Below, piece by piece: positions 25,376-44,108 of a stretch of 64,000 nucleotides of DNA (position 1 is the first letter of the stretch; every line of letters starts with the position of its first letter). The stretch is from Bacteroides sp. (GTDB taxonomy: Bacteria > Bacteroidota > Bacteroidia > Bacteroidales > Bacteroidaceae), in assembly GCA_017472925.1 (NCBI GenBank), contig JAFUNS010000023.1, forward strand, positions 1 to 64,000. Reading direction: 5' to 3'. A program made the translations under genes and the position numbers. The notes beneath the pieces were generated by a model, which saw only the letters and a program-made list of their open reading frames with translations, was not told the DNA's origin and ran no database searches.

Positions 25376-25376
25376 T

Positions 25377-25890: not shown

Positions 25891-25971
25891 ATGGAAAAGG
25901 TATATGCTTATGAAGCTCCGGTGGTAGAAATCATCGAAGTGGCCGTGGAAAAAGGATTTGCTGATTCTTAA
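25891..25971 (+). CDS. Short peptide 1 (26 residues), candidate leader-type peptide
   Basis: An ATG at 25891 encodes MEKVYAYEAPVVEIIEVAVE followed by KGFADS and a stop. It matches the start of the 38-residue peptide at 27027 (YEAPxVExxEVxVEKGFAxS), which argues that both are real coding units rather than chance frames. The alternating Val/Glu pattern favours an exposed beta-strand. It has no signal peptide. Compared with peptide 2 it ends right after the shared part and lacks the Gly-rich tail. The reading frame is open upstream to 25780, but that extension overlaps the promoter. Function unknown; leader peptide of a modified peptide is one possibility, an upstream regulatory ORF for the TraX gene another. 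Confidence 0.6.
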   Translation: MEKVYAYEAPVVEIIEVAVEKGFADS

Positions 25972-26024
25972 ATGTGAGATTATTTAAACGTCTCGGAGAT
26001 ACTGAAAGTTACTCCGATTAATTA

Positions 26025-26080
26025 CTGTCCCTAATAATAAGAAGTGTTTATATGTTGGCTCTTCTAAGATTTAGGGACAG
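26025..26080 (+). promoter_or_regulatory. Stem-loop in the leader of the TraX-like gene
   Basis: CTGTCCCTAA (26025-26034) pairs perfectly with TTAGGGACAG (26071-26080); with one bulged A the pairing extends to 14 base pairs. The 36-base loop holds the alternative start codon at 26052. Lying between a short peptide gene and a membrane protein gene, it could act as an attenuator-like element. Confidence 0.55.
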
Positions 26081-26126
26081 AATTATGTTTTTCACATTAT
26101 TCGCGCATCTTAACTTTTACATAATC

Positions 26127-26837
26127 ATGCAACTCGTAAATACTCATAGCTTTCGCATCTCGGGAAGTGTCCTTAAACTATTAGCCGTCTTTTCTATGCT
26201 GATAGATCATGTCGCTTGGGCTTTATTAAAAAATAACGAAGTGTTTACGCAAACGCTATGTACTATTGGAAGTCGGGATATAACTCCGTATTTCCTGATG
26301 CGGGCATTCGGTAGACTTGCTTTTCCTATCTTCAGTTTTTTGATAGTAGAAGGCTTTGTATTAACTAGGAATCGTTTTAATTATGGAAGGAATTTGTTGC
26401 TTTTCGCAATCATTTCTGAGATACCTTGGAACTTGTTGCATGCCGGGGTATGGCATCATCCCACCCAAAATGTATTCTTTACTTTATTCCTGGGATATTT
26501 GGGACTTTGTTGCTTGACATATTGGAAAGAAGATGCGGTTAAAAAGAGTATTGGACTATTAGTCTTATTAGCCATTTCTTTTAAGTTTCGTGCTGATTAT
26601 GGATATAGAGGGTTTGGGTTTATTTTGATGCTTTATGCTTTGCGTAGTCATTTACTGGTGAAATCGGTAATAGGTTGTTGTATGTTACCGGGAGCATGGA
26701 TGCCAGGATTGGCTTTTGTTCCTATCTGCTTGTATAATGGGAAACGTGGATTCATTCAAGGACCTGCTTGGAAATTCTGTTTTTATGCCTTCTATCCTGT
26801 ACATTTGTTGATTTTATATATTATTCGTTTGCTTTGA
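26127..26837 (+). CDS. TraX-family membrane protein
   Basis: A polytopic protein of 236 residues from the ATG at 26127 (an upstream start at 26052 lies inside a stem-loop and precedes a -7-like TAACTTTT at 26110-26117). Landmarks of the TraX family are LKLLAVFSMLIDHVAWALL, AFGRLAFPIFSFLIVEGF, RNLLLFAIISEIPWNLL and the C-terminal FCFYAFYPVHLLILYI. TraX of the F plasmid is needed for N-acetylation of pilin. Adjacent fimbrillin-like lipoproteins make acylation of a surface protein or peptide conceivable, but chromosomal TraX homologues are common and their substrates unknown. Confidence 0.8.
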   Translation: MQLVNTHSFRISGSVLKLLAVFSMLIDHVAWALLKNNEVFTQTLCTIGSRDITPYFLMRAFGRLAFPIFSFLIVEGFVLTRNRFNYGRNLLLFAIISEIPWNLLHAGVWHHPTQNVFFTLFLGYLGLCCLTYWKEDAVKKSIGLLVLLAISFKFRADYGYRGFGFILMLYALRSHLLVKSVIGCCMLPGAWMPGLAFVPICLYNGKRGFIQGPAWKFCFYAFYPVHLLILYIIRLL

Positions 26838-26961
26838 ATCCTTGAGTATGGAATGTAAATAAGGTGACGTTTTATGGTTTGTAAAGCGTCGTTTTATGTT
26901 TTATTACTCATTGTTGAATTTAAAGTAAAAGTGTTAAAAGTGGGAGATTGTTCGTTTGATA

Positions 26962-26992
26962 TTTGGAAGTCTCTTTTTTTTTTTTTTCTTTG
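26962..26992 (+). promoter_or_regulatory. Promoter-like element with a T14 tract in its spacer
   Basis: TTTG at 26962-26965 and TTTCTTTG at 26985-26992 (TAnnTTTG with one mismatch) are separated by 19 bases, of which most are a run of 14 T (26974-26987 overlaps the -7 side). Slippage in this run would change the spacer. The peptide 2 start codon is at 27027. Confidence 0.5.
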
Positions 26993-27026
26993 TGCAGATT
27001 TAACATATTATTAAAAAGTTTGTATT

Positions 27027-27143
27027 ATGAAGAAAGAAATGTATATCAAGTATGAGGCTCCAGAAGTTGAAGTCTTGGAAGTTGAAGTAGAAAAAGGGTT
27101 TGCAACTTCTGTTGAGGCTGGAGAAGGGGGAGGAGATTATTAA
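27027..27143 (+). CDS. Short peptide 2 (38 residues) with Gly-rich tail
   Basis: An ATG at 27027 encodes MKKEMYIKYEAPEVEVLEVE then VEKGFATSVEAGEGGGDY and a stop. It shares the YEAP-EVEV-EVEKGFA core with the 26-residue peptide at 25891, then adds a short Gly/Glu/Asp-rich C-terminus. A conserved strand-forming N-terminal part followed by a small variable tail is the layout of many ribosomal peptide precursors, and a PqqD-like protein, which in known systems binds leader peptides as an added beta-strand, is encoded 12.6 kb downstream. It starts the lipoprotein operon: the next start codon is only 14 bases away. The precursor role is inference. Confidence 0.65.
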   Translation: MKKEMYIKYEAPEVEVLEVEVEKGFATSVEAGEGGGDY

Positions 27144-27156
27144 ATTTGTAAAATTG

Positions 27157-28110
27157 ATGATTAAGTCTGCTTTTAATCTTTTATTAGTAATTATTTTTTT
27201 GTTATTTTCTTGTGACTCCAATAAGGATTTATGTAAGTTGCAAGAAAATGGTGACGTGGAACGTGTAGTGGTAAAGCTTCTGCAAATAGAAGAAGAGGAA
27301 TCTACTTCTCGTTTGTATACGGATGAAAATGTCAAGTATTTCTATTGGGAAAAAAATGATACAGTAGGAATATTTCCATCAATTGGTGGACAAGTTGAAT
27401 TTCCTTTAGGTAATAAAGAGAATCAAACTACAGCCGTATTTGATGGTGGTGGATGGGCCTTAAAAAGCACTTATACCTACTCGGCTTATTATCCTTTTAG
27501 TTTTTATAATCGTAATATTGATAAAATTCCAATATCTTATTTAGGACAGAAACAAACAGGTAATGATAATCGCAGTCATTTAAGAAATTATTTGTTTTTT
27601 GCTTCTCCACCTGTTATTGTAGAGAATTCTTCTTTGACTTTAAAATTAGGACATCAGGGATCTGTAATGAGGTTAGAGTTGACCATGCCTGCGGCAAAAA
27701 TATGGTCTTCTTTATCTGTATATACAACAGAGGATATTCTTCCAGTAGAAAAAACAATAAATTTGCAAGATGCTTCTTTGGAACAAACGGTTGTTTCATA
27801 CACCGATAGAATTTCTTTAGAACTAAATGAAATTGTCACAACTGAAGAGGGTCAGAAAATAGTTGTATGGTTGGCCTATCCTTCTGTTACGGCGGATTCG
27901 CATTACTTGTATGTCACAATTCGTGATTCTGAAGGCTATGCATATGTGTCAGAAATAAATAAAGGAAATGGTTCGCATTCAAGTGCTACCGCCCCTATGA
28001 ATAAACGTCTTCCGCGTTATGCTTCCCCCGTCCTTCAGCAAGGCATTAATTCCGGGATAAGTGATTGGGAAAAGTCGGATAAAGATTATGGTGGTACAGT
28101 GGGTGGATAA
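27157..28110 (+). CDS. Fimbrillin-like lipoprotein
   Basis: From the ATG at 27157 the 317-residue product starts with a lipoprotein signal ending LLFSC (C19); an earlier non-ATG start at 27100 would overlap peptide 2 and spoil the signal. The body has the fimbrillin-family pattern: FYWEKNDTVGIFPSIG, STYTYSAYYPFSFYN, LKLGHQGSVMRLEL and VVWLAYPSV. Family members are outer-membrane-anchored, surface-exposed proteins, some being pilus subunits with a C-terminal donor strand. No pilus chaperone or usher is encoded nearby. Second gene of the operon beginning with peptide 2. Confidence 0.8.
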   Translation: MIKSAFNLLLVIIFLLFSCDSNKDLCKLQENGDVERVVVKLLQIEEEESTSRLYTDENVKYFYWEKNDTVGIFPSIGGQVEFPLGNKENQTTAVFDGGGWALKSTYTYSAYYPFSFYNRNIDKIPISYLGQKQTGNDNRSHLRNYLFFASPPVIVENSSLTLKLGHQGSVMRLELTMPAAKIWSSLSVYTTEDILPVEKTINLQDASLEQTVVSYTDRISLELNEIVTTEEGQKIVVWLAYPSVTADSHYLYVTIRDSEGYAYVSEINKGNGSHSSATAPMNKRLPRYASPVLQQGINSGISDWEKSDKDYGGTVGG

Positions 28111-28165
28111 TTCATTGTACCATCCCATTTTTGATAATATAATAATGTATACAATATAAAGACAT

Positions 28166-31100
28166 ATGCGGAATAGTATGTGTGTAAAAAAATGTGTATG
28201 GGTGGCAAGTATATTGTGTGTACTTGCTTTTTTTTCATGTAGTGACGCATGGAAAGAAGAAGCTGCCCTTAATAACCAGAGGAAGGTATTTGTTCTAAGC
28301 GGTAGTATCAGCCAACAGAATGAGAGTAGAGCCAATGCAAATGGTTTTGTAGATGGAGACCGTATGGGAGTTTATATCGTTGATTACAACAATGGACTAC
28401 CGGGTACTTTGTCGGCTACCGACAATCGGGCTTCGAACGTATTGTATACATTCAATGGGCTTGAGAATAGTTGGAAATCTGCTGTAACATTGTATTGGAA
28501 AGACCAAACCACTCCGGTAGATGTATATGGATATTATCCGGGAGTAAACTATATTGATTCTCCTACGGCCTATGCATTTGAGGTCAGTCATTTACAGAAT
28601 GTTGTCCCCGAAGAAGGAGAAATATCGAATTATGAGGCTTCCGATTTTTTATGGGGAAAAGTAGAGAAAGTAAATCCTACCGAAGAAACCATCATGATAC
28701 GCTATCAGCATAGGATGGCCGGTATTCAAGTGACTTTGCAACTTGGAGAAAACATGGTGGGCGATGAATTTAATTGGGCTGAAGTAGATAAAAAGGTGCA
28801 GATTAACCAAGTGCGCCGTTCGGCGAGCATCGACCTGACAACAGGTGTTCCTGTTGCCACCGGTGAAGTGGATAAAAGTATCCAGATGATGAAGCAGGAA
28901 AATGATGTATATCGGGCTGTTATTGTACCTCAAGAGGTCGCTGCACAAACTAACTTGTTTACATTGGTTGTAGATGGGAAAAACTATCCTGCCGCAATTA
29001 ATGAAAACATTAATTTTCAATCAGGCAAACTCTACCAATTTAACTATACGTTATACATATCCGAATCAACCGGTACCTATGAACTTATGCTTACAGGTAT
29101 TGAAATCTCTGATTGGATAAACGATCAAATCTCGCATAATTTTACTGCAAGCCAGTATGTTATCATTCATTGTCCCGAATCAGGACAGTTGGAAAATAGT
29201 ATTCAGCAGGCGGGATACGATTATCAGAAAATGAAAAATCTTAAGATAACCGGTTATCTGAATGATAAAGATTTTGAACTATTGAGAAGCAAGATGCCTA
29301 AACTGGAACACTTGAATTTAAAAGAAGTGGAGATTCCGGATAGATTGCTTATATACAGCCATTGGTTTGATGGACCTGGAACGATTGAAAAATACAGAAC
29401 CAATGCATTACCAATAAATGCATTGTACGGCAATAAAACCATAAAATCCCTTGTATTACCTAAGAGTATAACCCATATCGGTTCTAATGCATTAAGGGAA
29501 ATGAACTTGATGTATTCAACATTGGAAATACCCGAAGGTGTCCTTAATATAGAAGAAGGTGCATTGGCGTTTAACGAAGAGAATGGGGTAGAACTGGTAT
29601 TACCGCTTTCATTGGATTCGATTGGAAGTGATGCTTTTTGCGCTAACAGTTATCGATGTGAGTTCCGGTTAAGTGACAAGATAAAATATATTGCTGATGG
29701 AGCCTTCTATGAATGTAAGAATTTTTATGGAACGTTTCAGATTCCTTCCAAGCTTACGGTGATCAAGAAGGAGGCTTTCGGAGGCGTAGGAGTCAAGAAT
29801 AATACATTGGATGGAAATATTGAAATAGCCCAGGGGGTTACTAAAATAGAAGAAAGGGCATTCTATAACATGGGGTTTGCCAATCGTTTGAACTTGACAT
29901 TCCCACCAGGGTTGAATAGTATAGAAAAACAAGCATTCTCAGGGGTGCGTTTAAGTTCGCTTCGTTTTAATGACGATTTGGAAGAAGTAGGTAGTGAAGC
30001 CTTCTATAATGCACACATACCGTTTCAAATTACTTTGCCATCGCAGTTAAAGATTGTAGGTAGAAGAGGCTTTTTGGAAGCGAGAATTGAAGGGGAACTG
30101 GTCATTCCGGAATCTTGCCTGAATTTAGGTGAAGGGGCATTTGCCGGTAATAATTTTACAAAGATCACTCTTCCCAAGAAATTGGAAATGATACCACGGG
30201 ATTGTTTTAATAATCTCAAATATCTGAAGGAAATAAATATTCCTAAATATGTAGACTATATCGGGCATTATGCATTTAACGGTGATAATGCCTTGGAAAC
30301 CATCATTTGTATGAATCCGGAGCCCCCTTCTTTGGGCGATCAGGTATTTGATGGTGTGGATAAGGAGAAAGCTATTCTGCAAGTGCCAGAGCGTTCTGTG
30401 GGCTTGTATCGGAACACTTCGGGATGGAATCAGTTCAAAAACATTACTGCATATCATGAATTGGCTTTCAATATATCGGAAATCAAGACTCTGGACAAGG
30501 GAATGACTCGTGTGGGCATTATCCGTTCTGAAGGTGATTGGGAAGTTTCGTATTGTCCTAATTGGATTACAGTTTCACCGATGGAAGGACCAAACAAAGC
30601 CGAAGTAACCATTACGGTTAATGAACAGACACCGGGTGCCGGGGAACGTGAAGATAAAATTGTCTTTAAATTGAAAGACAAGGATTACACTACTTATACA
30701 AATGTCAAGCAATTCTCTTCAACTGAGATTGTTGAAGACAAGATGATTGTGCTTCAGCCTGCAGATGCCGGTGCACCCAAAGCGGTTCCGCTATTTATTA
30801 TAGGTGATGGTTATGATGCAGAGGAAATCCTTTCGGGTAAATATTTGGAAGACATGAATGCTCAAATGAATCATTTCTTTTCGATAGAGCCTTATAAATC
30901 CTATCAGAAATATTTTACGGTCAGTACTGCGATAGTGTGTTCTCCAGATTCTGGCATAGAAGGGGATACCAAATTTAAAAGTGAGGTTTTTGACGGCCTT
31001 CGTGGGGATGCCGATAAGGTATGGGAATATGCAAAAACTTATGGGGAAGGTTTTAGTACGGCTTCTGAAGGGGATTGTACGGTAATGGTTTTGCTGAATA

Positions 31101-31621
31101 CAGTTTCTACTGCAAATTATACCGACATAGAAAGAAATGGACGGACAGTCAGTTGGGTAGGTAAGAGTAATGATTCGTATCCTTTTGATCAAAAGAGTCA
31201 GGTCTTGCGTGAAGTAGGTGGCGTTGCCTTTGGAAAGTTAGCTCCCGAAGGAGTTAATCATTTTACGTTTATCAAGTCTTGTACTTGTCCGCATTGCAAT
31301 ATGCTAAGTACGTATCAGGATATGCAGAGAGAAGGATGGTATAAAAACATTACCCTTTCTGCTAATATGAATGAGGCACCTTGGAAGCATTACATTTTCA
31401 ATTCCAATTATTCGTCTCTTGTAGATATGTATGAGGGGGCATTGCGCCATGCTCGTGGTGCCTACCGTTCAGAGAATATGAGCATTATGGGAAACACTTA
31501 TATCCCTTATTTCAATACAATCAGTCGCGAAATAATTGTACGCCGGATTATGCAGTGTGCAGAGAAAGAATTTTCCATGGATGAATTTTTAGCGAACGAT
31601 AAAATAGAAATACTCGAATGA
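28166..31621 (+). CDS. Fimbrillin/LRR5/BACON/M64-type lipoprotein A, inactive protease
   Basis: The 1,151-residue lipoprotein has a signal ending FFSC, a fimbrillin-like domain (about 30-320; RANANGFVDGDRMGVYIVDY, then LYWKDQTTPVDVYGYYPG), BspA-type LRR5 repeats (about 340-740; SLVLPKSITHIGSNAL is typical), a BACON domain (about 770-850; NWITVSPMEGP) and an M64-like peptidase domain (about 860-1151). The zinc-site region reads REVGGVAFGKLAPE where its two sister proteins have HEAGGHGFGKLGDE: both His ligands and the Asp are replaced (R1015, V1020, P1027) and only E1016 remains. It should be unable to bind zinc. Its stop codon overlaps the next start (ATGA). Confidence 0.88.
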   Translation: MRNSMCVKKCVWVASILCVLAFFSCSDAWKEEAALNNQRKVFVLSGSISQQNESRANANGFVDGDRMGVYIVDYNNGLPGTLSATDNRASNVLYTFNGLENSWKSAVTLYWKDQTTPVDVYGYYPGVNYIDSPTAYAFEVSHLQNVVPEEGEISNYEASDFLWGKVEKVNPTEETIMIRYQHRMAGIQVTLQLGENMVGDEFNWAEVDKKVQINQVRRSASIDLTTGVPVATGEVDKSIQMMKQENDVYRAVIVPQEVAAQTNLFTLVVDGKNYPAAINENINFQSGKLYQFNYTLYISESTGTYELMLTGIEISDWINDQISHNFTASQYVIIHCPESGQLENSIQQAGYDYQKMKNLKITGYLNDKDFELLRSKMPKLEHLNLKEVEIPDRLLIYSHWFDGPGTIEKYRTNALPINALYGNKTIKSLVLPKSITHIGSNALREMNLMYSTLEIPEGVLNIEEGALAFNEENGVELVLPLSLDSIGSDAFCANSYRCEFRLSDKIKYIADGAFYECKNFYGTFQIPSKLTVIKKEAFGGVGVKNNTLDGNIEIAQGVTKIEERAFYNMGFANRLNLTFPPGLNSIEKQAFSGVRLSSLRFNDDLEEVGSEAFYNAHIPFQITLPSQLKIVGRRGFLEARIEGELVIPESCLNLGEGAFAGNNFTKITLPKKLEMIPRDCFNNLKYLKEINIPKYVDYIGHYAFNGDNALETIICMNPEPPSLGDQVFDGVDKEKAILQVPERSVGLYRNTSGWNQFKNITAYHELAFNISEIKTLDKGMTRVGIIRSEGDWEVSYCPNWITVSPMEGPNKAEVTITVNEQTPGAGEREDKIVFKLKDKDYTTYTNVKQFSSTEIVEDKMIVLQPADAGAPKAVPLFIIGDGYDAEEILSGKYLEDMNAQMNHFFSIEPYKSYQKYFTVSTAIVCSPDSGIEGDTKFKSEVFDGLRGDADKVWEYAKTYGEGFSTASEGDCTVMVLLNTVSTANYTDIERNGRTVSWVGKSNDSYPFDQKSQVLREVGGVAFGKLAPEGVNHFTFIKSCTCPHCNMLSTYQDMQREGWYKNITLSANMNEAPWKHYIFNSNYSSLVDMYEGALRHARGAYRSENMSIMGNTYIPYFNTISREIIVRRIMQCAEKEFSMDEFLANDKIEILE

Positions 31622-34600
31622 AAGCAATGAACAGATATCAATTATATGTTTTTTCCCTGCTTTTAGTAGGAATAACCTTTTCGTGTCAGGATAATAATGT
31701 ATGTGACATGGAAACAGGATATGCCCCTATCCATTTGCAGGCTGAAATCATTCAAGAAAATGTAACCCGTGCCAATGACAATGGGTTTGCCGATGGTGAT
31801 CAGGTAGGGGTGTTTGTCGTGGATTATAATGGAGAAGCTGCGCAGGCTTTGCAAGTTTCTGGTAATCATGCCGACAATGTCCGATTTATATATAATGAAA
31901 AGGATGGAACATGGACCGGTAGTACCCAACTATACTGGAAGGATCAGACTACTCCTATCGACTTGTATGGTTACTATCCGTTTGATGCTTCACTTCAAAC
32001 GGTTAACGCCTATCCATTTGAAGTACAACGAAACCAGCGTGACGTGTTGCATGAGGGTAGAATGGCTGGTTATATCGGCTATGAAGCATCGGATTTCCTT
32101 TGGAGTAAGGTTACAAAAGTTTATCCTACAGAAGCAACGATTACTTTGCCTTATCAGCATTTGTTTGCAGGGGTACGTGTTTCATTGGTTGAAGGTACCG
32201 GTTTTGGAGAGAATGAATGGAGTGGGATAACAAAGACCGTTTTGGTGGAAAATACATGTCCTAATGCATTGATTGATTTGCAGACAGGAACGGTTACCAA
32301 GGATAGTCGTTCAACCCCTATTACCATCATTCCACAAACTTATCATCAGGACTACCGTGCAATTGTAGTGCCTCAAACGCTGCAAGCAGGAGTATGTTTG
32401 ATTTCGATTACGGTGGATGGGACTAGTTACAAGTTTACCCGCGATAGTGAGATGAACTATGAAGCAGGTAAACTGCATGAGTTTACTTTGAAAATCAATA
32501 AGAATACAGTTTCAGGAGACTATGGAATTGAACTTGTCAGCGAAGCGGTTTTGCCGTGGGAAAATGACCCGCTTTCCCATAACGGAACAGCTCGTGAGTA
32601 TATCTGTGTTCATGTAAACGAAGATGAATATATAGGTGATGTAATCAAACAAATGAATCTTGATCCTAAAGAAATCAAGAATCTTAAATTGACAGGAGTC
32701 CTTTCGGGAAAGAAGCAGTTTGAATATATACGCCAACAAATGCCTTATTTGGAAGCGATTCACATGAAAGATTTGAGAACCAAGGAACAGAGGATTTATA
32801 ATGATTATTTTTATTCTCCTTTTGATGGTGCGCAATATGGTTATGCAGAATATGAAGATGATTTTATCCCTGGATCGGCTTTTGAGAATATGGCTTTTCT
32901 TTCTTTTGTAGTGTGGCCGGATCATTTGAAAGGCTTAGGTCGTAATTCATTTGCAGGTACCAACCTGCGTGGATCTCTTATTTTGCCGGAAGGGTTGAAA
33001 TATGTAGGGAAAGATTGCTTTTGGGCCTATGAACATAAGCCGACATCATTAAGTGGGGAATTGTATATCCCTTCTACTGTTGAATATATTGGTGATAATG
33101 CTTTTGCGGATTGTTATTTTAACGGTGAATTGGTGCTGCCTCAAAAAATGAAATATTTGGGCTCGGAAGCGTTTCGTAATAATATCAATTTGACAGGACA
33201 GATACACATACCGGATGGATTGACTGAAGTGAATAGTGCTTGGCTATATACCGGTGTGACAGGATATGCGGAAATACCGCAAGGTGTCAAGAAAATTAAT
33301 GGCATCGGCTGTTTGATTTCGGGTATTCATATTCCCGAGGGAGTGGAAGAAATCGTTCAGATTCATACATATGATGTAGGTTCGTTCAGAAATAAGTATG
33401 GAGAGAATGCTATGAACCTGTTTATGAAGCATGATATTCATTTGCCTTCTACTTTGACCAAACTGAGTGAACGTGCATTTTATTATGCTAATTCAGCTCG
33501 TATCAATATTCCCGATGGTGTGGAGATTATTCCGAATTGGGCTTTTAACAGTTCCAAATTACAAGATACGTTGTCTATCCCGTCATCTGTTACTCAGATA
33601 AGAATGGGTGCTTTTGCTGAGTGCCATTATCTGACTGCCGTTGTTCTTCCGGAAAACTTGCAAGAGATACAGGATATAGCCTTTCAAAATTGTAGGTCGC
33701 TTAATTATATCCAATGTCTGAGTCCTAAACCACCCCGTTTGAGTGGAAATGCATTCGATGGAGTAGAAAAGAATAATTTTACATTGGTGGTGCCGGAAGG
33801 CTCGGTTGATCTTTACAAAGGTGCTGACGGATGGAAAGAGTTTACTCGGATTTCAACCTATCAAAAATTCGTTTGTCGCCCTATGTCGGCCAAATTGTTG
33901 AATAAAGGGAATACACGAACAATCATATTGGATGCAGATGGTGATTGGACGGTAACTCACAAACCGGATTGGGTGACATTGTCGGCAGAAAGCGGTTCTA
34001 AGAAAAAGGAATTGACGGTGACTATAAATGATTTGTCTTCTGGAACGGGCGATCGAAGTGGCGAGATTGAATTTACTTTAAACGGAAAAACTGATGATAT
34101 GGAAAATCCGATTACCACCAGTTATAAGATAACTCAATATGATAGTGAATATAAGGAAAATAGTCAAATAAAACTCCAAAATGCTTCTGAAGGTAATGGT
34201 ATTAATATTGTCTTTACCGCCGACGGTTATGATGCGGAAGATATAGCCAATGGAAGCTTTATAGCGGATGTAAAGGAAGGTATGAAATATTTCTTCGGAA
34301 TACAACCTTACCAAAAATATCAGAACTATTTTAATGTATATGCCCATGTTGCGATGTCGAATGACAGTGGTGTTTGTTCCAATGTAAATATCTGGAGAAA
34401 TACGAAGTTCAATACGAGATACGGAGGTGGGGAAAATGGCAGATTAAATGTCGATGCGAATAAAGTAATGCATTTTGTCATGAATGAAGTGGAAGAAACA
34501 TGTATTACGTCTCAGAATGTTTCTGAAAGTTTGGTTATATGTATTTTAAATAGTGATGTGTACGAAGGTATTTGTACCATGTATGCAGACGGTTCTGCAG

Positions 34601-35204: not shown

Positions 35205-38200
35205 ATGAAAAAGATGAAATATATATGGTGTACTCTTTTGATGTTTTCATTGGCATCGTGTGTGGAGCAATCGGTAGATACAGTAAATGGAGAAGGTAAA
35301 AAACCTATTTTTTTGTCTGCTACCTATCCCGTAAATACCGTTTCACGTGTTGCGGAAAACGGATTTGTAGCTGGTGATGAAGTGGGAATCTTTATTGTGG
35401 ATTATGATGCGTCTGGCAATCCGGGTGAACCTGCATTGAAAGGAAATCGTGGCTCGAATGTCCGTTTTAAATTTGATGGTGAAAAATGGAGCGCACCTTA
35501 TCAGTTATATTGGGCTGATGATAAAACACCGGCAGATTTTTATGGCTATTATCCGTTTGATGAGTCGATGACTTCGGTAACCGAATACTTCTTTAGTATC
35601 CAAAGCAGTCAAAATGGTAGTGCTACATCAACATCAGCTTCAGGTTATGAGCAAAGTGATTTGTTGTGGGCAAAGGCTACTCGTGTAACTCCTACTATTG
35701 GAACTGTTGATTTGAAATACCGTCATTTGATGGCCGGTATCACAGTCAATTTAACGAAAGGAGATGGATTTACGGATGAGCAATGGAATAATTTTGAAAA
35801 AACGGTACAGATAGAAAATACGGTTTTAAAAGGTGTCGTGAACATGAAAACCGGTGAAGTGTCGGTCTTTAGCGATGAAATCCATGCCATTACTCCGATG
35901 TTTTATAACGGTTGCTGGCGAGCGGTGGTTTATCCTCAATCCGTTGAAGCCGGCAAATCATTGATAAGTATTACTGTTGATGGTCAATCTTACCATTTGT
36001 CAAGTAATGAATCAATGGTCTACACAAGTGGTAAGATGCATGAATTTGAGATTGTGGTCGAACGTTCTGATCCTGAAGGAGAATATGTATTTAATTTGGC
36101 ACATCAAAGTATCACCAATTGGATAGATGATGCGGATTTCCATGATGGCTTGATTCGTCAATATACCATTGTACATGTGGATGAACCAGGTACTTTGCAA
36201 CAGGAACTTGCTGAAGCCCGGTTGGATTATCAGCGTGTTATCAGTCTGAAAGTGGAAGGTAAATTAAATGCTACAGATATGGAATTTATGGGTCAGCAGA
36301 TGACTTCATTGGCCAATGTCAATTTACAACAAGCCATTATTACAGATGGTGTTGTTCGCGGTTTTATGAATCATCCTCGTTTGACACATTTTGTTTTCCC
36401 AAAAAGTGGAGTTACAAGAATAGAAAATCGTGCCTTTCACAAGACACCTTTAATAGGGTCGGTACATATACCGGAAGGAGTAACACAAATTGGAGAACAA
36501 GCTTATGCAGAATGTAGATTGTTGACCGGTAACTTATCTCTACCAACGACATTAAAGAGAATAGAGCAGGCTGCTTTTTCTGTTACCAGTTTGGGCGGGC
36601 AGCTTATCCTGCCTGATGGTATAGAATTTATCGGTTCTTCAGCATTCTTTGAATGTATCTTTGAGGGTAGTTTATATTTGCCGGAATCATTGACTGTTTT
36701 ACCTATGTTTAATAGTGGAAGGTTGACCGGGAGTGTTACTATTCCGAGAAATATTACAGTGATAGATGAAGGGACATTTGTGAATAGTGGTTTTAGCCAG
36801 GTGGAATTTCATGATGGTATAACTGAAATTAAGAAAGGTGCATTTGCCAATACACAACTTGCTGGGGAATTGGTGCTTCCTCCCAATTTGAGACAATTAG
36901 GGGGGCATGCGTTCAAGAATACGAAAATTACCAATATCATATTTCCGGATGCTCTTCAGATAATGCTGGATGGAGGTTATACGGAAGAAGGTATATTTTC
37001 AGGATGCAACCGTATAACAGGAACTATTCAGTTTGCTAAGAATGTGTCTCGTATCCCTAAAGGCTGTTTTTATGAATGTTCATCCATGACAGGAATCATT
37101 TTACCTAAAAATGTTGAAATTATTGATGAAAAGGCTTTTCAAAATTGTTATAGTCTGAATCGAATTGTTTGTGAAAATCCGGAGCCTCCTGTGGTTTATA
37201 AAGATGCTTTCTATGGAGTTCCAAAGGATAATTTTACATTGGAGGTTCCGGAAGGTTCTGTAGAAAAGTACAAGAATGCAGAAGGATGGAAAGAATTCAG
37301 TCGTATAGCAGCATATGGAAGTTTTGTATGTCGTCCGTCACAGGCCAATGCGTTGAATAAAGAGCGTACGCAATCATTGGTCTTGAATGCTGATGGTGAA
37401 TGGGAAGTTGAATTTTGTCCGGAATGGTGTACGGTGTCACCTATGTCCGGTTCAGGAAAAGCCGATTTACAGCTAACAATCCAACAATTATCGTCTGGAG
37501 GTGAAAATCGTACTGATGTCATTTGTTTTAAGTTGAAGAATGGAGAATACAGAACTTATTGTACTGTTTCCCAATATAATTACCAATACGAAGAGGATCA
37601 ATGTATCTCTTTATTGACACAACAAAAAGGATATGCTAGAAGTAATAATATTCTTTTTTTAGGTGACGGCTTTGATAGTGAAGATATTTCAAGTGGTAAA
37701 TATCTCAATTTGGTGGAAAAACAAATGGAATATTTCTTTGGTATCGAACCATATAAGAGTCATAAAGATTATTTCAATGTATATGTGGCCTTTCCCTTGT
37801 CGCAAGAGAAAGGTGTCAATACCATGAATACTTATGTTAACAATCGTTTTGGAACACTTTATGGTTTTGATGGTGAGGTCAACACGGTGAATCAGTTGTT
37901 GACAGAAACAGGTTCTATATATGATTATGCATTGTCGTTGGCAAATGAACCGTTGGATGAGACAATTATGAAAGAATCGTTGATTATATTGATTCCTAAT
38001 TCATCGGATTACAATGGAGTGACATATTATGCAGATAAGGACTTAACGGTTTCGATTTGTCCTCCATCGGAACGTGCGTATCCCCAAGATATGAGAGGAG
38101 TCGTTCAACATGAGGCTGGTGGCCATGGATTTGGGAAATTAGGAGATGAAGAAATTATCTATAATAAATGGGCACCTTCGATAGTTATTGCAGACATTGA

Positions 38201-38666
38201 AGAAAAACATTCCAAACATCCTTCTCTCGGATGGTATGAGAATTTAGCTACTACATCCAATACAAATAGTGTGCCATGGTCGAATTTTATATTCGATGAA
38301 CGATATTCAGACGAAGTGGATGTGTTTGAAGGTGGTGCCGGCTATATGCGTGGTGTGTTCCGTCCTGAATCCAACTCGTGTATGAATTATGGAATTCCAT
38401 ATTATAATGTAGCATCCCGTCATTCCATAATGAAGCGAATAATGATACAGGCGGAAGGAAGTATTACAAGTGAATATTTTGAAAAAAATGATAGTAAGGA
38501 ATGGGGCGAGGTCGATTCGCGTGCGGTATTGTCTGTTGCCAATTCGTATGGAGGAAGCTCATTGCACAGAGCGCCTACTCAGGTAAATATGAAACAAATG
38601 GATAATGCTATCAAAAGAATCCGCCAAGCTAATAAAGTTAAACAAGAACAATCAATCAATCGCTAA
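35205..38666 (+). CDS. Fimbrillin/LRR5/BACON/M64 lipoprotein C, intact metallopeptidase
   Basis: The 1,153-residue lipoprotein (signal ending LASC) repeats the plan of A and B: fimbrillin-like domain (RVAENGFVAGDEVGIFIVDY, about 45-64), LRR5 repeats (about 380-690), BACON (WCTVSPMSGSG, about 740-750) and M64. The zinc motif HEAGGHGFGKLGDEE is complete (H969, E970, H974, D981), but the Cys-rich loop of A and B (CTCPHC, CSCPCC) is missing and replaced by an unrelated insert. The conserved SCMNYGIPYYN segment matches SCMNNNVPYYS in B. Only 8 bases separate it from B. Confidence 0.92.
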   Translation: MKKMKYIWCTLLMFSLASCVEQSVDTVNGEGKKPIFLSATYPVNTVSRVAENGFVAGDEVGIFIVDYDASGNPGEPALKGNRGSNVRFKFDGEKWSAPYQLYWADDKTPADFYGYYPFDESMTSVTEYFFSIQSSQNGSATSTSASGYEQSDLLWAKATRVTPTIGTVDLKYRHLMAGITVNLTKGDGFTDEQWNNFEKTVQIENTVLKGVVNMKTGEVSVFSDEIHAITPMFYNGCWRAVVYPQSVEAGKSLISITVDGQSYHLSSNESMVYTSGKMHEFEIVVERSDPEGEYVFNLAHQSITNWIDDADFHDGLIRQYTIVHVDEPGTLQQELAEARLDYQRVISLKVEGKLNATDMEFMGQQMTSLANVNLQQAIITDGVVRGFMNHPRLTHFVFPKSGVTRIENRAFHKTPLIGSVHIPEGVTQIGEQAYAECRLLTGNLSLPTTLKRIEQAAFSVTSLGGQLILPDGIEFIGSSAFFECIFEGSLYLPESLTVLPMFNSGRLTGSVTIPRNITVIDEGTFVNSGFSQVEFHDGITEIKKGAFANTQLAGELVLPPNLRQLGGHAFKNTKITNIIFPDALQIMLDGGYTEEGIFSGCNRITGTIQFAKNVSRIPKGCFYECSSMTGIILPKNVEIIDEKAFQNCYSLNRIVCENPEPPVVYKDAFYGVPKDNFTLEVPEGSVEKYKNAEGWKEFSRIAAYGSFVCRPSQANALNKERTQSLVLNADGEWEVEFCPEWCTVSPMSGSGKADLQLTIQQLSSGGENRTDVICFKLKNGEYRTYCTVSQYNYQYEEDQCISLLTQQKGYARSNNILFLGDGFDSEDISSGKYLNLVEKQMEYFFGIEPYKSHKDYFNVYVAFPLSQEKGVNTMNTYVNNRFGTLYGFDGEVNTVNQLLTETGSIYDYALSLANEPLDETIMKESLIILIPNSSDYNGVTYYADKDLTVSICPPSERAYPQDMRGVVQHEAGGHGFGKLGDEEIIYNKWAPSIVIADIEEKHSKHPSLGWYENLATTSNTNSVPWSNFIFDERYSDEVDVFEGGAGYMRGVFRPESNSCMNYGIPYYNVASRHSIMKRIMIQAEGSITSEYFEKNDSKEWGEVDSRAVLSVANSYGGSSLHRAPTQVNMKQMDNAIKRIRQANKVKQEQSINR

Positions 38667-38683
38667 TCATAAAGACTATAAAT

Positions 38684-39550
38684 ATGAAAACAGGAAAGTT
38701 TCTACTACTCTCGGCTGTCGTTACAATAGCTTTAACTGCTTGTAATAACGAAGAAATATTTAATGAACTTACAAGAGAAATCCAGTTGGATATGATTTAT
38801 CCAGGACAAGAATCACGTGCTACGGACACTCAATTTGAAGCTAATGATCAAATAGGTGTATATATAACAACCGCTGATGCTTCATTGCAATTGGGAGGTA
38901 ATTATGTTAATAATACGATGTTTGAATACAAAAGCTCTAAATGGGAACCCAATAAGCCTTGTTATTGGGTAGAAGGTACGTATGATATTTATGCGTATTA
39001 TCCGTATTCACCAACAATCAATGATGTAGAAAATTATAATTTCCAAGTTCAGGAAGACCAAACATCGAGTCTTAATTATACGAAAAGTGATTTTATGTGG
39101 GCATGTACCTCAAATTATACTCCGAATTTTACAAATAACCCTTCTGTTTCCATGCAGTTCGCTCATAAAATGTCGAATGTAATGGTGGAATTGGTGCGTG
39201 GTGAAAATTTTGAAGGTACTATTCCTGAGAATACGAAAGTTTATTTATATAGTATAGTAACTTCGGCAGTTATCGACTTGTCTTCTGGGGATGTAGCAAA
39301 AGATAGCTATGCCGGTGAAAGTACTGTTCAATGCTTTAAGGTAGATAATGATACTTTTAAGGCTATTGTTGTGCCACAAAGTATCACATCTAAACGTCCA
39401 TTGGTAGAAGTTGTTATTGATAATGTATCCTATCTGATGGAAGGAAAAATCAGTTATCGACAAGGATATCGTCATACAATTACAGTAACACTTGATACAG
39501 ATCCGGAAAATATCAAAATTAATATTGGTGGACAATTGGGAAATTGGTAG
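38684..39550 (+). CDS. Fimbrillin-like lipoprotein, last gene of the lipoprotein operon
   Basis: A 288-residue lipoprotein with a signal ending LTAC (C20). It corresponds to just the N-terminal fimbrillin-like domain of proteins A-C: DTQFEANDQIGVYITTADA, CYWVEGTYDIYAYYPYS, MQFAHKMSNVMVELVRG and RPLVEVVIDNVSYLM. No LRR, BACON or peptidase part follows. It starts 17 bases after protein C and ends the run of same-strand lipoprotein genes; a heavily structured intergenic region follows. It may be a partner or minor subunit for the larger proteins. Confidence 0.82.
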   Translation: MKTGKFLLLSAVVTIALTACNNEEIFNELTREIQLDMIYPGQESRATDTQFEANDQIGVYITTADASLQLGGNYVNNTMFEYKSSKWEPNKPCYWVEGTYDIYAYYPYSPTINDVENYNFQVQEDQTSSLNYTKSDFMWACTSNYTPNFTNNPSVSMQFAHKMSNVMVELVRGENFEGTIPENTKVYLYSIVTSAVIDLSSGDVAKDSYAGESTVQCFKVDNDTFKAIVVPQSITSKRPLVEVVIDNVSYLMEGKISYRQGYRHTITVTLDTDPENIKINIGGQLGNW

Positions 39551-39605
39551 TCATGAAGAAAAATTTAGAATAATTTGTCTCTCCATTTCTAATGGACCTT
39601 TATAG

Positions 39606-39696
39606 AATGCCTTCATTGGTTTCATTTACTTAGAATTTAAAGTAGCTTAAATTTAGGTGAAGCCAATGAAGGCATTTAAGTGGAAATATTTCCACT
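39606..39696. terminator. Nested inverted repeats between the lipoprotein and PqqD operons
   Basis: AATGCCTTCATTGGTTTCA (39606-39624) pairs with 39658-39676 over 19 positions with one G-U pair; its loop contains a further AATTTAA / TTAAATT dyad, and the perfect palindrome AGTGGAAATATTTCCACT follows at 39679-39696. It probably ends the lipoprotein transcript, and the palindrome could also be an operator for the downstream promoter. Confidence 0.6.
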
Positions 39697-39725
39697 CTTA
39701 TTTATTAGATATTAAATTCCCCTAT

Positions 39726-39760
39726 TTTGGAAGGATTGGAAGTAATTATTACTATCTTTG
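39726..39760 (+). promoter_or_regulatory. Promoter of the PqqD-ABC operon
   Basis: TATCTTTG at 39753-39760 is an exact TAnnTTTG match; TTTG at 39726-39729 is 23 bases upstream. The element lies inside the longer open frame from 39727, which therefore supports the ATG at 39784 as the true start. Confidence 0.65.
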
Positions 39761-39783
39761 TATTTTCTATTAGTTTTAGCGTT

Positions 39784-40050
39784 ATGAAAATAAATTCGAA
39801 TTATAAGCTTCGCTCCATAGCGGGCGAAACCATTGTGGTGAATCAAGGAACAACGGGTACGGATATGACCCGAATCATTTCATTGAATGCTTCGGCCAAA
39901 TTGCTGTATGAGCAGTTGCTTGGAAAAGAGTTTGCTGTAGATGATGCCGCCAATGTGTTGGCAGATACTTATGGCATTGATAATGAACAGGCTTTGAAGG
40001 ATGCACAAAAATGGGTGGATGCACTCTGTAAATGTGGAGTTATTGAATAA
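39784..40050 (+). CDS. PqqD-like peptide-binding protein
   Basis: From the ATG at 39784 the product has 88 residues, the usual size of stand-alone PqqD proteins. The pattern is characteristic: LRSIAGETIVVNQG (strand-rich N-terminus), TRIISLNASAKLLYEQLLGK and a helical end with VLADTYGID and WVDALCKCGVIE. PqqD-like domains (RRE) recognise the leader sequence of ribosomally made peptides and present them to modifying enzymes. It opens a five-gene operon with 6- to 14-base gaps or overlaps. The precursor it serves is not inside the operon; the two short peptides near 25.9 and 27.0 kb are candidates. Confidence 0.85.
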   Translation: MKINSNYKLRSIAGETIVVNQGTTGTDMTRIISLNASAKLLYEQLLGKEFAVDDAANVLADTYGIDNEQALKDAQKWVDALCKCGVIE

Positions 40051-40056
40051 AAGACT

Positions 40057-41160
40057 ATGTTGAATACATCGGAACAGATACTGTTTGCCTTGTTGAGGGC
40101 TTCGTTGCATCAGGTAGAGGCGGAACAAACTTGCTTTCAGCATGTGTCGGATGAAGAATGGAAGCAATGCTATCAGTTGGCAGCCCGACAAGGGGTGATG
40201 GCTTTGGCATGGGATGGTGTGATGACGCTTCCAGCAAATCTGCAGCCTCCCCGTTCTCTGAAATTGGCATGGGGGATGGCTGTACAGGATTATGAGGCAA
40301 AATATGCCCGTTATTGCCGGACCATTCGTGAACTTTCTGCCTTTTATGCAGAACAGGGCATTGTAACGGTACAGATGAAGGGAGTGGGACTTTCTGCCTA
40401 TTATCCGGTGCCGGCTCATCGCGAAGGTGGCGACATTGATATCTATACCTTCTCGGCCGATCATTCAAAAATGACAGATACGGAAGCAAATAGGTTGGCC
40501 GACGAGCTGATGAAACGACAAGGAATAGAGGTGGTGATGCACTCGTATAAGCATAGTAATTTCTATTACAAGGGAATACCCATAGAGAACCATAAATGCT
40601 TTCTGAATGTGCAGCATTACTCTGTTGCGGTTCAAGTGAACGAAATGTTGAAACAATGTATGTGTCCGCAAACTACCGATTTGCTGGAAGGGGAATGTAG
40701 GATACTGACACCTTCTCCGGCATTCAATACTTTATTTCTGGCTTTTCATGCTTCACAGCATTATGGTAGTGGGTTGGCTTTGCACCATTTGTGCGATTGG
40801 GCAGTATTGATAAAACGCTATGGGTTGAAACTACCGGAAGAACTGACCGACAAACGTTTTCTGGAAGCTATAGCTGCACTTACGCAATTGGCTAACCATT
40901 ATTTGGGTACCCAAGCGGAAATAACTGGCGGTGAACAATTGGCGGATGAAATGTTGCAGGAAATGTTGCATCCAAAGTTTTATCACAAAGAAAGGATTCC
41001 GGCAAAAGGCAAGTGGGGTATTCTGAAATATAAAACCCAACGTTTTCTCTATATGTCGAGGGTGTCGAACCGAATTCTGTATGTCCCTTTATGGAAACGT
41101 ATTTGGAAATCGGTTGTAGCACATGTACGTCGTCCTGAAACAATATTCCAAACAGAGTAG
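40057..41160 (+). CDS. Nucleotidyltransferase-family protein (NTP_transf_5 type)
   Basis: The 367-residue protein matches the family with the active-site pattern GxDIDxY: MKGVGLSAYYPVPAHREGGDIDIYTF covers this region at about residues 108-133 (Asp pair in GDIDIY). Further His-rich segments, LHHLCDWAVLIKRYG and FLAFHASQHYGSG, fit the MNT/NTP_transf_5 group. Homologues occur in lasso-peptide and other peptide clusters beside HPr-kinase-like proteins, where they are thought to modify the peptide or sugar-like groups, though the chemistry is mostly unproved. It is 6 bases after the PqqD gene. Confidence 0.85.
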   Translation: MLNTSEQILFALLRASLHQVEAEQTCFQHVSDEEWKQCYQLAARQGVMALAWDGVMTLPANLQPPRSLKLAWGMAVQDYEAKYARYCRTIRELSAFYAEQGIVTVQMKGVGLSAYYPVPAHREGGDIDIYTFSADHSKMTDTEANRLADELMKRQGIEVVMHSYKHSNFYYKGIPIENHKCFLNVQHYSVAVQVNEMLKQCMCPQTTDLLEGECRILTPSPAFNTLFLAFHASQHYGSGLALHHLCDWAVLIKRYGLKLPEELTDKRFLEAIAALTQLANHYLGTQAEITGGEQLADEMLQEMLHPKFYHKERIPAKGKWGILKYKTQRFLYMSRVSNRILYVPLWKRIWKSVVAHVRRPETIFQTE

Positions 41161-41174
41161 AAGTAAAAAAGAAC

Positions 41175-42815
41175 ATGTTTTTCTTAAAGCGAATATACCG
41201 TTTGTTGCTTCTCGAAGAAAGAAAGGTTGGTAAAAAAGTGGTAGCGGCTGTCTTTTTTTCGGCTTTGCTTGATTTTGTGGGATTGGCTGCACTATTGCCT
41301 GTGCTTTATATTTTGTTGGAAGGTGGTGAAAATCATCGGGCAGCCATATACTTCTGTTTGTTCGCGGTAGGTGTTATTTTGTTCAAGAGTACATTGATAG
41401 TAAGCTTTTCCCGTTTCCAGAATTGTTATTTGCTTTCGTTGTACAAACGGTTGAGCTTTTCTCTTTTTTCATCCTATTATCGAAAAGGTTTGCTCTTTAT
41501 CCGTGAACAAGGGAGTAGCCGTTTGGGGCATGAAGTGACCTATATGTGTTTTGCTTTCAGTCAGAACATGTTGGCTCCATTGCTACGTATGGCAGGCGAT
41601 GGCTTGTTGATAGCAATGGTAACCCTGGCCTTGTTGGTGTATGATTGGCAAACGGTGTTGATTCTGTATATTTCTTTTCTACCTGTGATGGGACTTTATG
41701 TATGGGGGGTAAGAAAGCGTGCTCGGAAGTATGGAGAACAGGAACTGCGTGCTAAACGCAGGCAGGCAAAAGTGGTGAATGATACATTCAGAGGATTTCA
41801 AGAGCTGGAAGTGAATGGCGCTTTTTCTACCCAACAAGCTTCTTTTTTGGAAGGAATGGATGAAGTAGCTCATAGTAGGGTGAAATTGGATACGATTATG
41901 CGTGTGCCTGTGTTCTTGTCTGAATTGTCGGTTATTCTTGGATTGACGATATTGGTAGTTTTTGGAACAGGAGATGTCAAGGTGCTTGTAGGAGTGTTTG
42001 CGGTAGCGGCTTTCCGTTTATTGCCTGCGGTACGTGTTATGCTTTCGGGATGGACGCAAGTTCAGAATGCCCTTTATTGTCTGGATGTGTTGGAAGAAGG
42101 ATTGGAAGATCCGGATGAGAAAGAAGTTGTATGTAGCTTGGAGGAATTGCCATTTGAAAAGGAAATAAGGATATGTGGCTTGTCGTACATATATCCTAAT
42201 GGTGAAGAAGTACTGAAAAATTTTGATGAGAGTATCCGTAAAGGAGAATATGTGGGATTCTGCGGATATAGTGGAGCTGGGAAATCTACCTTGTTTAATT
42301 TATTGTTGGGCTTTTTGAATCCTACGGATGGAAAAATATGTATTGACCGTACGGTGCTAACCCCCGAAATACAGCCTCTGTGGCTTCAAAAGGTGGGATA
42401 TGTACCTCAAGAGGTTTTCATCTTTCAAGGTACATTGGCTGAAAATATTGCTTTAGGGTGTAAAGAGATAGATAGGGACCGTGTTCTTCAGGTACTTGAA
42501 CAAGTGAGCTTGGGCAAATGGTTGCAAACGTTGGATGATGGTATAGATACGGTTTTGGGTGAAGCAGGAGGACGACTTTCCGGTGGACAGAAACAACGGG
42601 TAGGAATTGCTCGGGCGCTTTATAAGAATATTGATGTGCTGTTGTTGGATGAGGCTACATCGGCATTGGACAATAAAACAGAAAGAGAAGTAAATGAAAC
42701 TCTTTATCAATTAAAACAAACTTATGAACAGCTGACTATACTTTCCATAGCACATCGGGAAAGTTCGTTGGCATATTGTGACAGGATAATAACATTAAAG
42801 GATGATGATGAGTAA
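41175..42815 (+). CDS. ABC exporter (transmembrane plus ATPase in one chain)
   Basis: The 546-residue protein has an N-terminal six-helix exporter domain (about 20-310; for example ALLDFVGLAALLPVLYILL) and a C-terminal ATPase: Walker A GYSGAGKST (about 361-369), Q-loop near YVPQEVFIFQGTLAENIALG, signature LSGGQKQRVGIARALY (about 464-479) and Walker B DVLLLDEATSALD (about 484-496). There is no N-terminal C39 peptidase domain, so it would not cut a leader itself. As a homodimer it is the probable export step for the product of this operon. Confidence 0.92.
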   Translation: MFFLKRIYRLLLLEERKVGKKVVAAVFFSALLDFVGLAALLPVLYILLEGGENHRAAIYFCLFAVGVILFKSTLIVSFSRFQNCYLLSLYKRLSFSLFSSYYRKGLLFIREQGSSRLGHEVTYMCFAFSQNMLAPLLRMAGDGLLIAMVTLALLVYDWQTVLILYISFLPVMGLYVWGVRKRARKYGEQELRAKRRQAKVVNDTFRGFQELEVNGAFSTQQASFLEGMDEVAHSRVKLDTIMRVPVFLSELSVILGLTILVVFGTGDVKVLVGVFAVAAFRLLPAVRVMLSGWTQVQNALYCLDVLEEGLEDPDEKEVVCSLEELPFEKEIRICGLSYIYPNGEEVLKNFDESIRKGEYVGFCGYSGAGKSTLFNLLLGFLNPTDGKICIDRTVLTPEIQPLWLQKVGYVPQEVFIFQGTLAENIALGCKEIDRDRVLQVLEQVSLGKWLQTLDDGIDTVLGEAGGRLSGGQKQRVGIARALYKNIDVLLLDEATSALDNKTEREVNETLYQLKQTYEQLTILSIAHRESSLAYCDRIITLKDDDE

Positions 42816-43671
42816 AAAGTATCAGATAGCAGGACATTTGTTCGAAGTCATGGGAGAACAATTATGTGCGGCAGTAACTTGCATTGAAGGATTTCGCCCG
42901 TTTGAAGTGGAAGAAGGGGAACCGTTATTCCGTTTCCAGGAAGGAAACTTAAGAGATATTCCCCCCATGCAAAAAGTGGAGTATGTGTTTGAATACGAAG
43001 GGGTGAAGGGCGCTTTCGGAAGAACATCTGACGGATTACGCTTGAATTTGCTAATGGAGGCAGATGGAAGAGCTTTTGATATATGGTGCCGGGAAGGAGA
43101 TTCCGTGGTTTATATGGGTGGATGTTGGTTGATGCTGCTTTATCGGTTTGCTATGTGGGTGGCTTATGGCTTGATGACTTTACAGAAGGGAACACTGGCA
43201 ATTCATAGTAGCTGTATCGTTTATAAAGGTAAAGCAACGTTGTTCTTGGGAGAAAGTGGTACGGGCAAGAGTACGCATACCCGATTGTGGCGGGAGCATA
43301 TTGAAGGAGCGGTGCTATTGAATGACGACAGTCCTATGATACGAGTGGAAGATGGGAAAGTATGGGCTTATGGTAGTGCATGGAGTGGAAAGACTCCTTG
43401 TTATAAGAATGAACGTTATGAATTGAAAGCGTGTGTTCGTTTGTCGCAAGCTCCTTATAACCGGATGCAAAAATTGTCTGTACTTCAAGCTTATGGAGCA
43501 ATTCACCCTTCATGTGCGCCCGAGTTTGCATACGATGATGTATTATATGATGAGGTAAGTCGTACAATCGGTCAGATTCTATCGGTGGTACCTTGTTATC
43601 ATTTGGCTTGTTTGCCAGATAGAGAGGCGGCTTTGTTGTCTTGTCATACTATTTTTGAAAGTGAACCATGA
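42802..43671 (+). CDS. HPr-kinase-like protein
   Basis: The 289-residue protein has a P-loop, FLGESGTGKSTHTRLWREHI (about 146-165), followed by LLNDDSPMIRVEDGKVWAYG and GSAWSGKTPCYKNE, the arrangement of HprK-type Ser kinases and the PEP-carboxykinase-like proteins of peptide clusters. It lacks the PTS context of a true HprK/P. In paeninodin-type lasso clusters related kinases phosphorylate a serine of the precursor peptide; the same role here is inference. The start overlaps the ABC gene end by 14 bases (three consecutive ATGs at 42802, 42805 and 42808 are possible), indicating coupling. Confidence 0.85.
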   Translation: MMMSKKYQIAGHLFEVMGEQLCAAVTCIEGFRPFEVEEGEPLFRFQEGNLRDIPPMQKVEYVFEYEGVKGAFGRTSDGLRLNLLMEADGRAFDIWCREGDSVVYMGGCWLMLLYRFAMWVAYGLMTLQKGTLAIHSSCIVYKGKATLFLGESGTGKSTHTRLWREHIEGAVLLNDDSPMIRVEDGKVWAYGSAWSGKTPCYKNERYELKACVRLSQAPYNRMQKLSVLQAYGAIHPSCAPEFAYDDVLYDEVSRTIGQILSVVPCYHLACLPDREAALLSCHTIFESEP

Positions 43672-44108
43672 AGTGTATACCGAATGAAATATTCTTTGCA
43701 TGGGTAGAGTCTGAAATAGCAGAAAAGCGTTCTGTACGTTTCCGCTTGAAAGGCCAGTCCATGTTTCCTTTGTTGCGTAATGAACGTGATGAGGTGGTGC
43801 TTTATCCTTGTAAGGGGGAAAAACTTCGGCCTATGGATGTTGTATTGTTTCGATATCAGGGTAAGCATATATTGCATCGCATCCTTCGTATGGAGGGTGA
43901 ACATATCTATTTACGAGGGGATGGCTCGTATGTTGCCAAGGAAGAATGTACAACAACTGATGTAATAGGCATAGTACGTGAAATAAAACGTCCGTCGGGG
44001 AAAGTAATTTCGGTAGATGCTTGGCAATGGCGTTTGGCCAGTCGATTATGGAATGGATTAGGCATCTTCCGAAATCCTCTATTAAGAATATTACATAAAC
44101 TGTTATAG
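43668..44108 (+). CDS. S24/S26-family peptidase (signal-peptidase-like)
   Basis: The 146-residue protein carries the signal-peptidase-type Ser motif, LKGQSMFPLL (S31), and a downstream HILHRILRMEGEHIYLRGDG with a His (H70) in the place where bacterial enzymes have the catalytic Lys, resembling the Ser-His arrangement of SipW/ER-type signal peptidases. No N-terminal membrane anchor is obvious; a weakly hydrophobic C-terminus ends LRILHKLL. In this operon it is the only candidate leader-cleaving enzyme. Its start overlaps the kinase stop by 4 bases (ATGA). It is the last gene before the convergent nadK. Confidence 0.82.
   Translation: MKCIPNEIFFAWVESEIAEKRSVRFRLKGQSMFPLLRNERDEVVLYPCKGEKLRPMDVVLFRYQGKHILHRILRMEGEHIYLRGDGSYVAKEECTTTDVIGIVREIKRPSGKVISVDAWQWRLASRLWNGLGIFRNPLLRILHKLL

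Follow-up and report, generated by a model that had tools for sequence, protein, structure and literature searches.

A probable LPP-like peptide maturation system of Bacteroidales with dispersed precursor genes that mostly adjoin surface lipoprotein genes

Linear polyphosphorylated peptides (LPP) are products of a pathway for ribosomally synthesized and post-translationally modified peptides (RiPP) that Popov et al. (2026, PMC13381572) described as restricted to the Bacillota, in a main text without any word starting with "Bacteroid". The clusters adjoin capsule or polysaccharide genes, the role of their members is unknown, and phosphorylated lasso peptides of the paeninodin type have a leader motif related to that of LPP (PMC13381572). 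Here, we analyze a locus of a Bacteroides sp. (assembly GCA_017472925.1) that lies within the first 64,000 nucleotides of contig JAFUNS010000023.1, hereafter the window. It comprises two related short peptide genes, a TraX-like gene, five lipoprotein genes and a separate, tightly packed five-gene operon that starts with a PqqD-like gene. All are on the plus strand, as a preliminary description of this DNA had stated and as open reading frames (ORFs), translations and Pfam matches confirm. We consider it likely that this operon belongs to a Bacteroidales LPP-like RiPP maturation system working like the Bacillota pathway; on our best reading, the peptide-lipoprotein cassettes are scattered and rely on one or two maturation operons.

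Operon gene content and described pathways

The LPP core set consists of a RiPP recognition element (RRE), an HprK-like kinase, an NTP transferase, an MsbA-like ABC protein and a SipW-like peptidase with a Ser-His-Asp triad, and lacks a cyclase. The same five genes are encoded together in the window, namely a PqqD-like discrete RRE (39784..40050; PF05402, E 2.9e-11), an NTP_transf_5 nucleotidyltransferase (40057..41160; PF14907, E 4e-44), an MsbA/PglK-like ABC exporter (41175..42815; PF00005, E 4e-31), an HprK-like kinase (42802..43671) and an S24/S26 peptidase (43668..44108). The last two are assigned because of conserved active-site residues, and for the peptidase also because of its fold, not because of family scores. 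In the HprK-like protein, the P-loop SGTGKST, H135 and D175-D176 are invariant in 31 sequences, while searches with it returned only marginal P-loop and ribosomal-protein rows. Ser31, His70 and Asp85 of the S24/S26 protein are invariant in 27 sequences and correspond to the leader-peptidase triad of LPP, and its model has a signal peptidase/LexA-type fold with SipA (4n31) among the top matches. The earlier naming of these two genes as HPr-kinase-like and S24/S26 thus holds for active sites and, in the latter, fold, while both family scores fall below their cut-offs.

The predicted fold of the PqqD-like protein, a winged helix of three strands and three helices, resembles that of RRE-leader complexes and identifies it as a discrete RRE. 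Its residues N35 and D73 are invariant in 53 sequences and align with an Asn and an Asp of TfuB1. In LPP, an RRE Asn and Asp hold the Pro and Tyr of the YxxP motif; here N35 and D73 are equated with N33 and D70 of LppB by spacing alone, and no LppB entry was among the matches listed by a PDB sequence search at E up to 10. The nucleotidyltransferase has a GGDID motif that is invariant in 19 sequences, and no peptidase domain is among the Pfam matches of the ABC exporter.

Other described systems resemble the locus less. Paeninodin-type lasso peptide clusters share the discrete RRE, the HprK-like kinase and the NTP transferase, but the Bacteroidales operon has an S24/S26 enzyme and no cyclase gene. 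The lasso B2 protease family PF13471 had no match in the window's genome (79.7% complete), and no asparagine synthetase-like macrolactam cyclase is encoded among the operon genes (39784-44108), the rest of the genome not having been searched for one. We therefore ruled out a lasso peptide identity, in line with the initial proposal of a system devoid of B2 protease and lasso cyclase. The pyrroloquinoline quinone pathway differs by its radical SAM enzyme, which the Bacteroidales operon lacks, and by its precursor.

No Bacteroidota LPP system and no PqqD/HprK/S26 system was found in titles and abstract beginnings of the open-access literature (bioRxiv being outside this scope), nor were any of six 7-8-letter stretches of the peptide motif found in open-access literature. 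The consulted passages of PMC7470986 and PMC13114119 do not mention such a system, and those of PMC10352776, on Bacteroidales RiPPs, name PqqD in a reference only. To call the system undescribed, as was done at first, was nevertheless an overstatement, as published Bacillota clusters combine this core gene set with YxxP precursors (PMC13381572). New are the Bacteroidota setting, the different precursor, the pairing with lipoproteins and the dispersal of precursor genes. A RiPP gene set published in 2026 is thereby extended to gut Bacteroidales, among them Phocaeicola vulgatus ATCC 8482, and cultured strains offer genetic access to the function of LPP-like peptides.

The short peptide family and its co-occurrence with the operon

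The candidate precursors of the window, peptide 1 (25891..25971; 26 amino acids, with a YEAP motif) and peptide 2 (27027..27143; 38 amino acids), have no Pfam or NCBIfam match. A profile built from nine peptides gave seven matches (E <1e-3) in the window's own genome, two of them within the window. Among 296 phylum-wide genomes this genome was the sole match, so chance matches to the profile are rare. In the 55 unique peptides of the loci retrieved, Tyr, Pro at +3 (which was demanded by the pattern used to place them) and Glu at +13 are present in all, and Gly at +15 in 50; Ser occurs at Y+19 in 38 and at Y+20 in 15, the overlap between both sets being unchecked. Judged by this residue conservation and the near-absence of chance matches, the short peptides are a real protein family and not chance ORFs. 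Among 27 close relatives, entropy is low between Tyr and Ser and higher on either side, as would be expected of a leader plus core.

As in LPP, the precursors have a Y-P-V motif and a Ser at about Y+18 to +20. The full LPP consensus YxxPxVLxHQxIxFETxxS is, however, absent; the Bacteroidales peptides follow YxAPxVExxEVxVEKGFAxS, in which YxxPxV and the distal Ser are kept and LxHQxIxFET is replaced by ExxEVxVEKGF. Because the full consensus fails, we term the system LPP-like and not LPP. It further differs from LPP in its phylum, Bacteroidota, in its usual operon gene order, and in precursor genes that are dispersed over the genome and in most cases adjoin the gene of a surface lipoprotein.

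Peptides and operon co-occur. Among 39 genomes of the genus, that of the window included, a PqqD relative is present in 28 and a peptide in 20, all within those 28 (20/28 with versus 0/11 without PqqD; p 4.5e-5). Among 218 genomes of the order, at thresholds of 1e-5 for PqqD and 1e-3 for the peptide, PqqD is present in 24, the peptide in seven and both in six (6/24 versus 1/194; p 6e-6); relatedness is ignored in both tests. Independent occurrence, which would break the link, was thus checked for and not seen. The sole exception in the order, genome G193, has a peptide-like stretch that lacks an ATG, and it has neither a PqqD nor a clear HprK match. This stretch lies in locus L154 (G193:C10:64000-83900) and is possibly a relic.

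The genes also cluster in cis, with 18 of 31 genus peptides no more than 15 kb from a PqqD match. The best 80 of 172 places found are named loci, with P. vulgatus ATCC 8482, P. massiliensis and P. sartorii among them. All five gene types are present in 16 of these 80, in the window's order in 13 (one with an extra ABC match); PqqD-nucleotidyltransferase-ABC-HprK-S26 is the usual arrangement. A peptide is present in 18 of the 32 loci with HprK, versus 9 of the 48 without HprK in the stretch. In genome G031, from another family, six peptides followed by a lipoprotein gene (one weak, E 0.007) are on contigs that do not carry the single operon; precursors are therefore dispersed and the machinery central. 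Co-occurrence and clustering together support the modified-peptide system that the preliminary description had drawn up from the peptides, lipoproteins and PqqD operon.

These data also bear on an alternative that treats the short peptides as regulatory leader ORFs, such as attenuators or coupled upstream ORFs, controlling the downstream lipoprotein gene, and the PqqD operon as a RiPP cluster unrelated to them. Most peptide genes stop no more than about 80 nucleotides before the next gene, where upstream ORFs are usually located. Yet their amino acid sequence is conserved together with the RRE docking motif, codon changes are biased to the third position (2833 versus 871 and 746, a biased count as the pairs were selected for similar proteins), and genomes without the RRE lack peptides, with a single exception among the 194 of the order. 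We thus regard a regulatory role as improbable.

Partner lipoproteins and the proposed maturation route

The next same-strand called gene carries a lipobox behind 53 of 57 peptides in the first loci, versus 165 of 1431 background genes to which this crude pattern was likewise applied, although most loci are from related genomes and hence not independent. Not counted here are six loci that duplicate named records, a duplicate peptide and a downstream gene of <100 amino acids. The four exceptions are partners in L021 and L153, in which the Cys is present in the alignment, the TraX-like gene of the window and an HprK gene. After exclusion of TraX, an HprK, a PqqD and three proteins of 127-139 amino acids from 58 downstream genes, 52 partners were aligned, and the Cys is invariant in all of them. 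Most are 300-1300 amino acids long, with one of 2231. Six match Mfa_like_1, three LRR_5 and at least 32 no Pfam family at E 1e-3, while one BLAST cluster takes in 37 of the 52. Mfa_like_1 lipoproteins are shared with type V (FimA/Mfa) fimbrillin operons; here, by contrast, a conserved peptide tied to an RRE operon precedes them and most partners have no Pfam match. The idea that a terminal Trp is common to peptide cores and lipoproteins was also considered and set aside: 26 of 58 downstream genes encode a C-terminal Trp, versus 365 of 1297 background genes.

A leader-like motif was found in none of the 52 partners, and the initial suggestion of lipoproteins as substrates, which would have to bind the RRE, is therefore unsupported. 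The same result speaks against a peptide that acts in trans by bringing the kinase and the nucleotidyltransferase to the lipoprotein during its synthesis, so that the latter would be the modified substrate, or an operon that aids fimbria assembly. Such a role would fit the tight gene pairing and the resemblance of the S26 model to SipA, a signal peptidase homologue essential for pilus polymerization. However, the partners have their own lipobox and the peptides a variable, core-like tail, and we consider this explanation very unlikely.

For the favored LPP-like system, we infer the chemical steps as follows. The short peptides would be precursors that bind the PqqD-like RRE through a strand formed by their YxxPxV motif. 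The HprK-like kinase would phosphorylate the conserved Ser four to five residues past the conserved Gly, and the NTP_transf_5 protein might add a further group. The S24/S26 peptidase would cut off the leader, likely after VEKG, so that the core begins with FAxS, and the ABC protein would export the core into the periplasm, where it may work with the surface lipoprotein of the next gene. Leader cleavage by the S26-like enzyme and export by the ABC protein had been proposed from the outset, and both roles match those in the related Bacillota pathway (PMC13381572).

Several observations weigh against this scheme. The HprK-like protein scores 18.6 bits against HprK_rel_A, far below the cut-off of 200, and the S24/S26 protein 21.7 against a Peptidase_S24 cut-off of 23.3. 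The conserved Ser is at Y+18 in the LPP consensus but at Y+19 or Y+20 in Bacteroidales. Besides the disregard of relatedness in the co-occurrence tests, the profiles were built from PqqD-chosen loci, possibly favoring linked peptides. No peptide was recognized in eight of the 28 genus genomes with PqqD; their best PqqD matches are distant (E 7e-11 to 3e-20), but the PqqDs of some peptide-bearing genomes are no closer. A peptide was seen in only eight of the 16 five-gene loci and in 27 of the best 80, many of them cut by contig ends. In the wider order sample, a lipobox gene lies within 100 nucleotides of the peptide in 11 of 17 cases; of the six others, two are followed by a gene that lacks a lipobox (one in G193), two have only a distant lipobox gene, one is ahead of HprK and one at a contig end. 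Lastly, peptide 1 of the window has just four residues, FADS, after the conserved Gly and no adjoining lipoprotein gene, as it is followed by the gene of a TraX-like membrane protein (26052..26837; PF05857, E 6e-36), which separates it from peptide 2. Peptide 1 and this gene are perhaps a decayed or rearranged cassette. The TraX-like protein is probably not a core part, since no BLAST relative was found among genes called in the other loci compared.

Twelve genus loci of a second type (L030, L037, L039, L040, L059-L064, L067, L072) have a peptide, a lipoprotein, a PqqD-type gene, NTP_transf_5 and HprK, with no S26 close by. L037, the sole one checked with Pfam, lies within a polysaccharide export locus that encodes a sugar transferase, a glycosyltransferase, a Wza-like polysaccharide export protein and a Wzc-like protein, and the peptide and an Mfa_like_1 lipoprotein come one gene after Wzc. 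Several others have similar gene lengths and a peptide directly behind a Wzc-sized gene.

This setting bears on the notion that the product is a bacteriocin-like RiPP, with the partner lipoprotein as immunity protein or receptor. Bacteroidales RiPPs are treated as candidate bacteriocins in the abstract of PMC10352776, and the patchy distribution (PqqD in 24 of 218 order genomes), the variable cores and the dedicated exporter would suit such a product. It seems an improbable explanation, however, given the polysaccharide export locus, the size of most partners, some of which have fimbrillin or LRR domains, and a window genome in which six of the seven peptides have a lipoprotein gene next. It is tempting to propose instead that one or two central operons mature the dispersed precursors in trans and that each phospho- or phosphoglyco-peptide is a partner of the adjoining surface lipoprotein, be it ligand, cap or covalent decoration, which in the second type would link lipoprotein and capsule glycan. 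We offer this dedicated partnership tentatively, and rated it slightly lower after pairing in the wider sample proved to be 11 of 17 and not near-total. If true, it would define a RiPP class for cell-surface building and not for secreted natural products. Peptide motif and partner lipoprotein together provide a substrate list for largely uncharacterized surface lipoproteins.

Window layout and related loci

The window genes probably form two transcription units, because promoter-like sites precede peptide 1 (25784..25818) and the PqqD operon (39726..39760) and a hairpin with 19-nucleotide arms (95%; 39606..39676) separates the lipoprotein unit from the operon. Both sites match TTTG-N-TANNTTTG, which we take to be a promoter consensus of putative function and which has 11 matches in the window versus a shuffle mean of 4.15. 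An invertible promoter was rejected, as the inverted repeats near 25.7 and 39.6 kb resemble hairpins rather than inversion sites. Rfam gave no match in the window at gathering scores. In 2-kb windows over 25000-40000, the G+C fraction is 0.345-0.403 across the peptide-lipoprotein unit and about 0.40-0.47 in the near flanks.

Five fimbrillin-like lipoproteins had been claimed; Mfa_like_1 was found in four, and the first, right after peptide 2 (27157..28110), has a lipobox and no Pfam match. The fifth (38684..39550) is fimbrillin-like by Mfa_like_1. The three long ones between them (28166..31621, 31618..35196 and 35205..38666) had been credited with LRR5, BACON and M64 domains; LRR_5 and M64 are above curated cut-offs in all three, while BACON passes in the first and is weak in the other two. 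The M64-like domain of 28166-31621 lacks the HExxH motif and has REVGG where both neighbors keep HEAGGH.

The window's genome has a second full operon (L021; G000:C12:82000-101900) with a peptide and lipoprotein directly ahead, in the order PqqD-HprK-nucleotidyltransferase-ABC-S26 and with a more distant S26 (27% identity). Outside the Bacteroidota, a Butyrivibrio fibrisolvens plasmid (L172; NZ_CP146964.1, 182000-198000) carries an LPP-like cluster beside lasso-type genes. The cluster comprises S24/S26, PqqD, a Cys-rich 57-amino-acid YVKP peptide, an HprK-like gene and ABC genes; a second PqqD, nucleotidyltransferases, an asparagine synthase-related gene and polysaccharide glycosyltransferases are nearby. 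The Bacteroidales profiles gave 51 bits for the S26-linked PqqD and 13 for the other, a small test with two PqqDs on one plasmid, and 97 for HprK and 53 for S26, in which the HR and GD signatures typical of the Bacteroidales S26 are absent. Alistipes/Rikenellaceae loci (L104, L107-L109, L111-L112, L117-L119, L121-L122 and similar ones) have a PqqD of the same family and no operon in the stretch. There, a gene of about 100-155 amino acids comes after PqqD, and then one of about 770-820, which in L121 appears TonB-receptor-like by eye.

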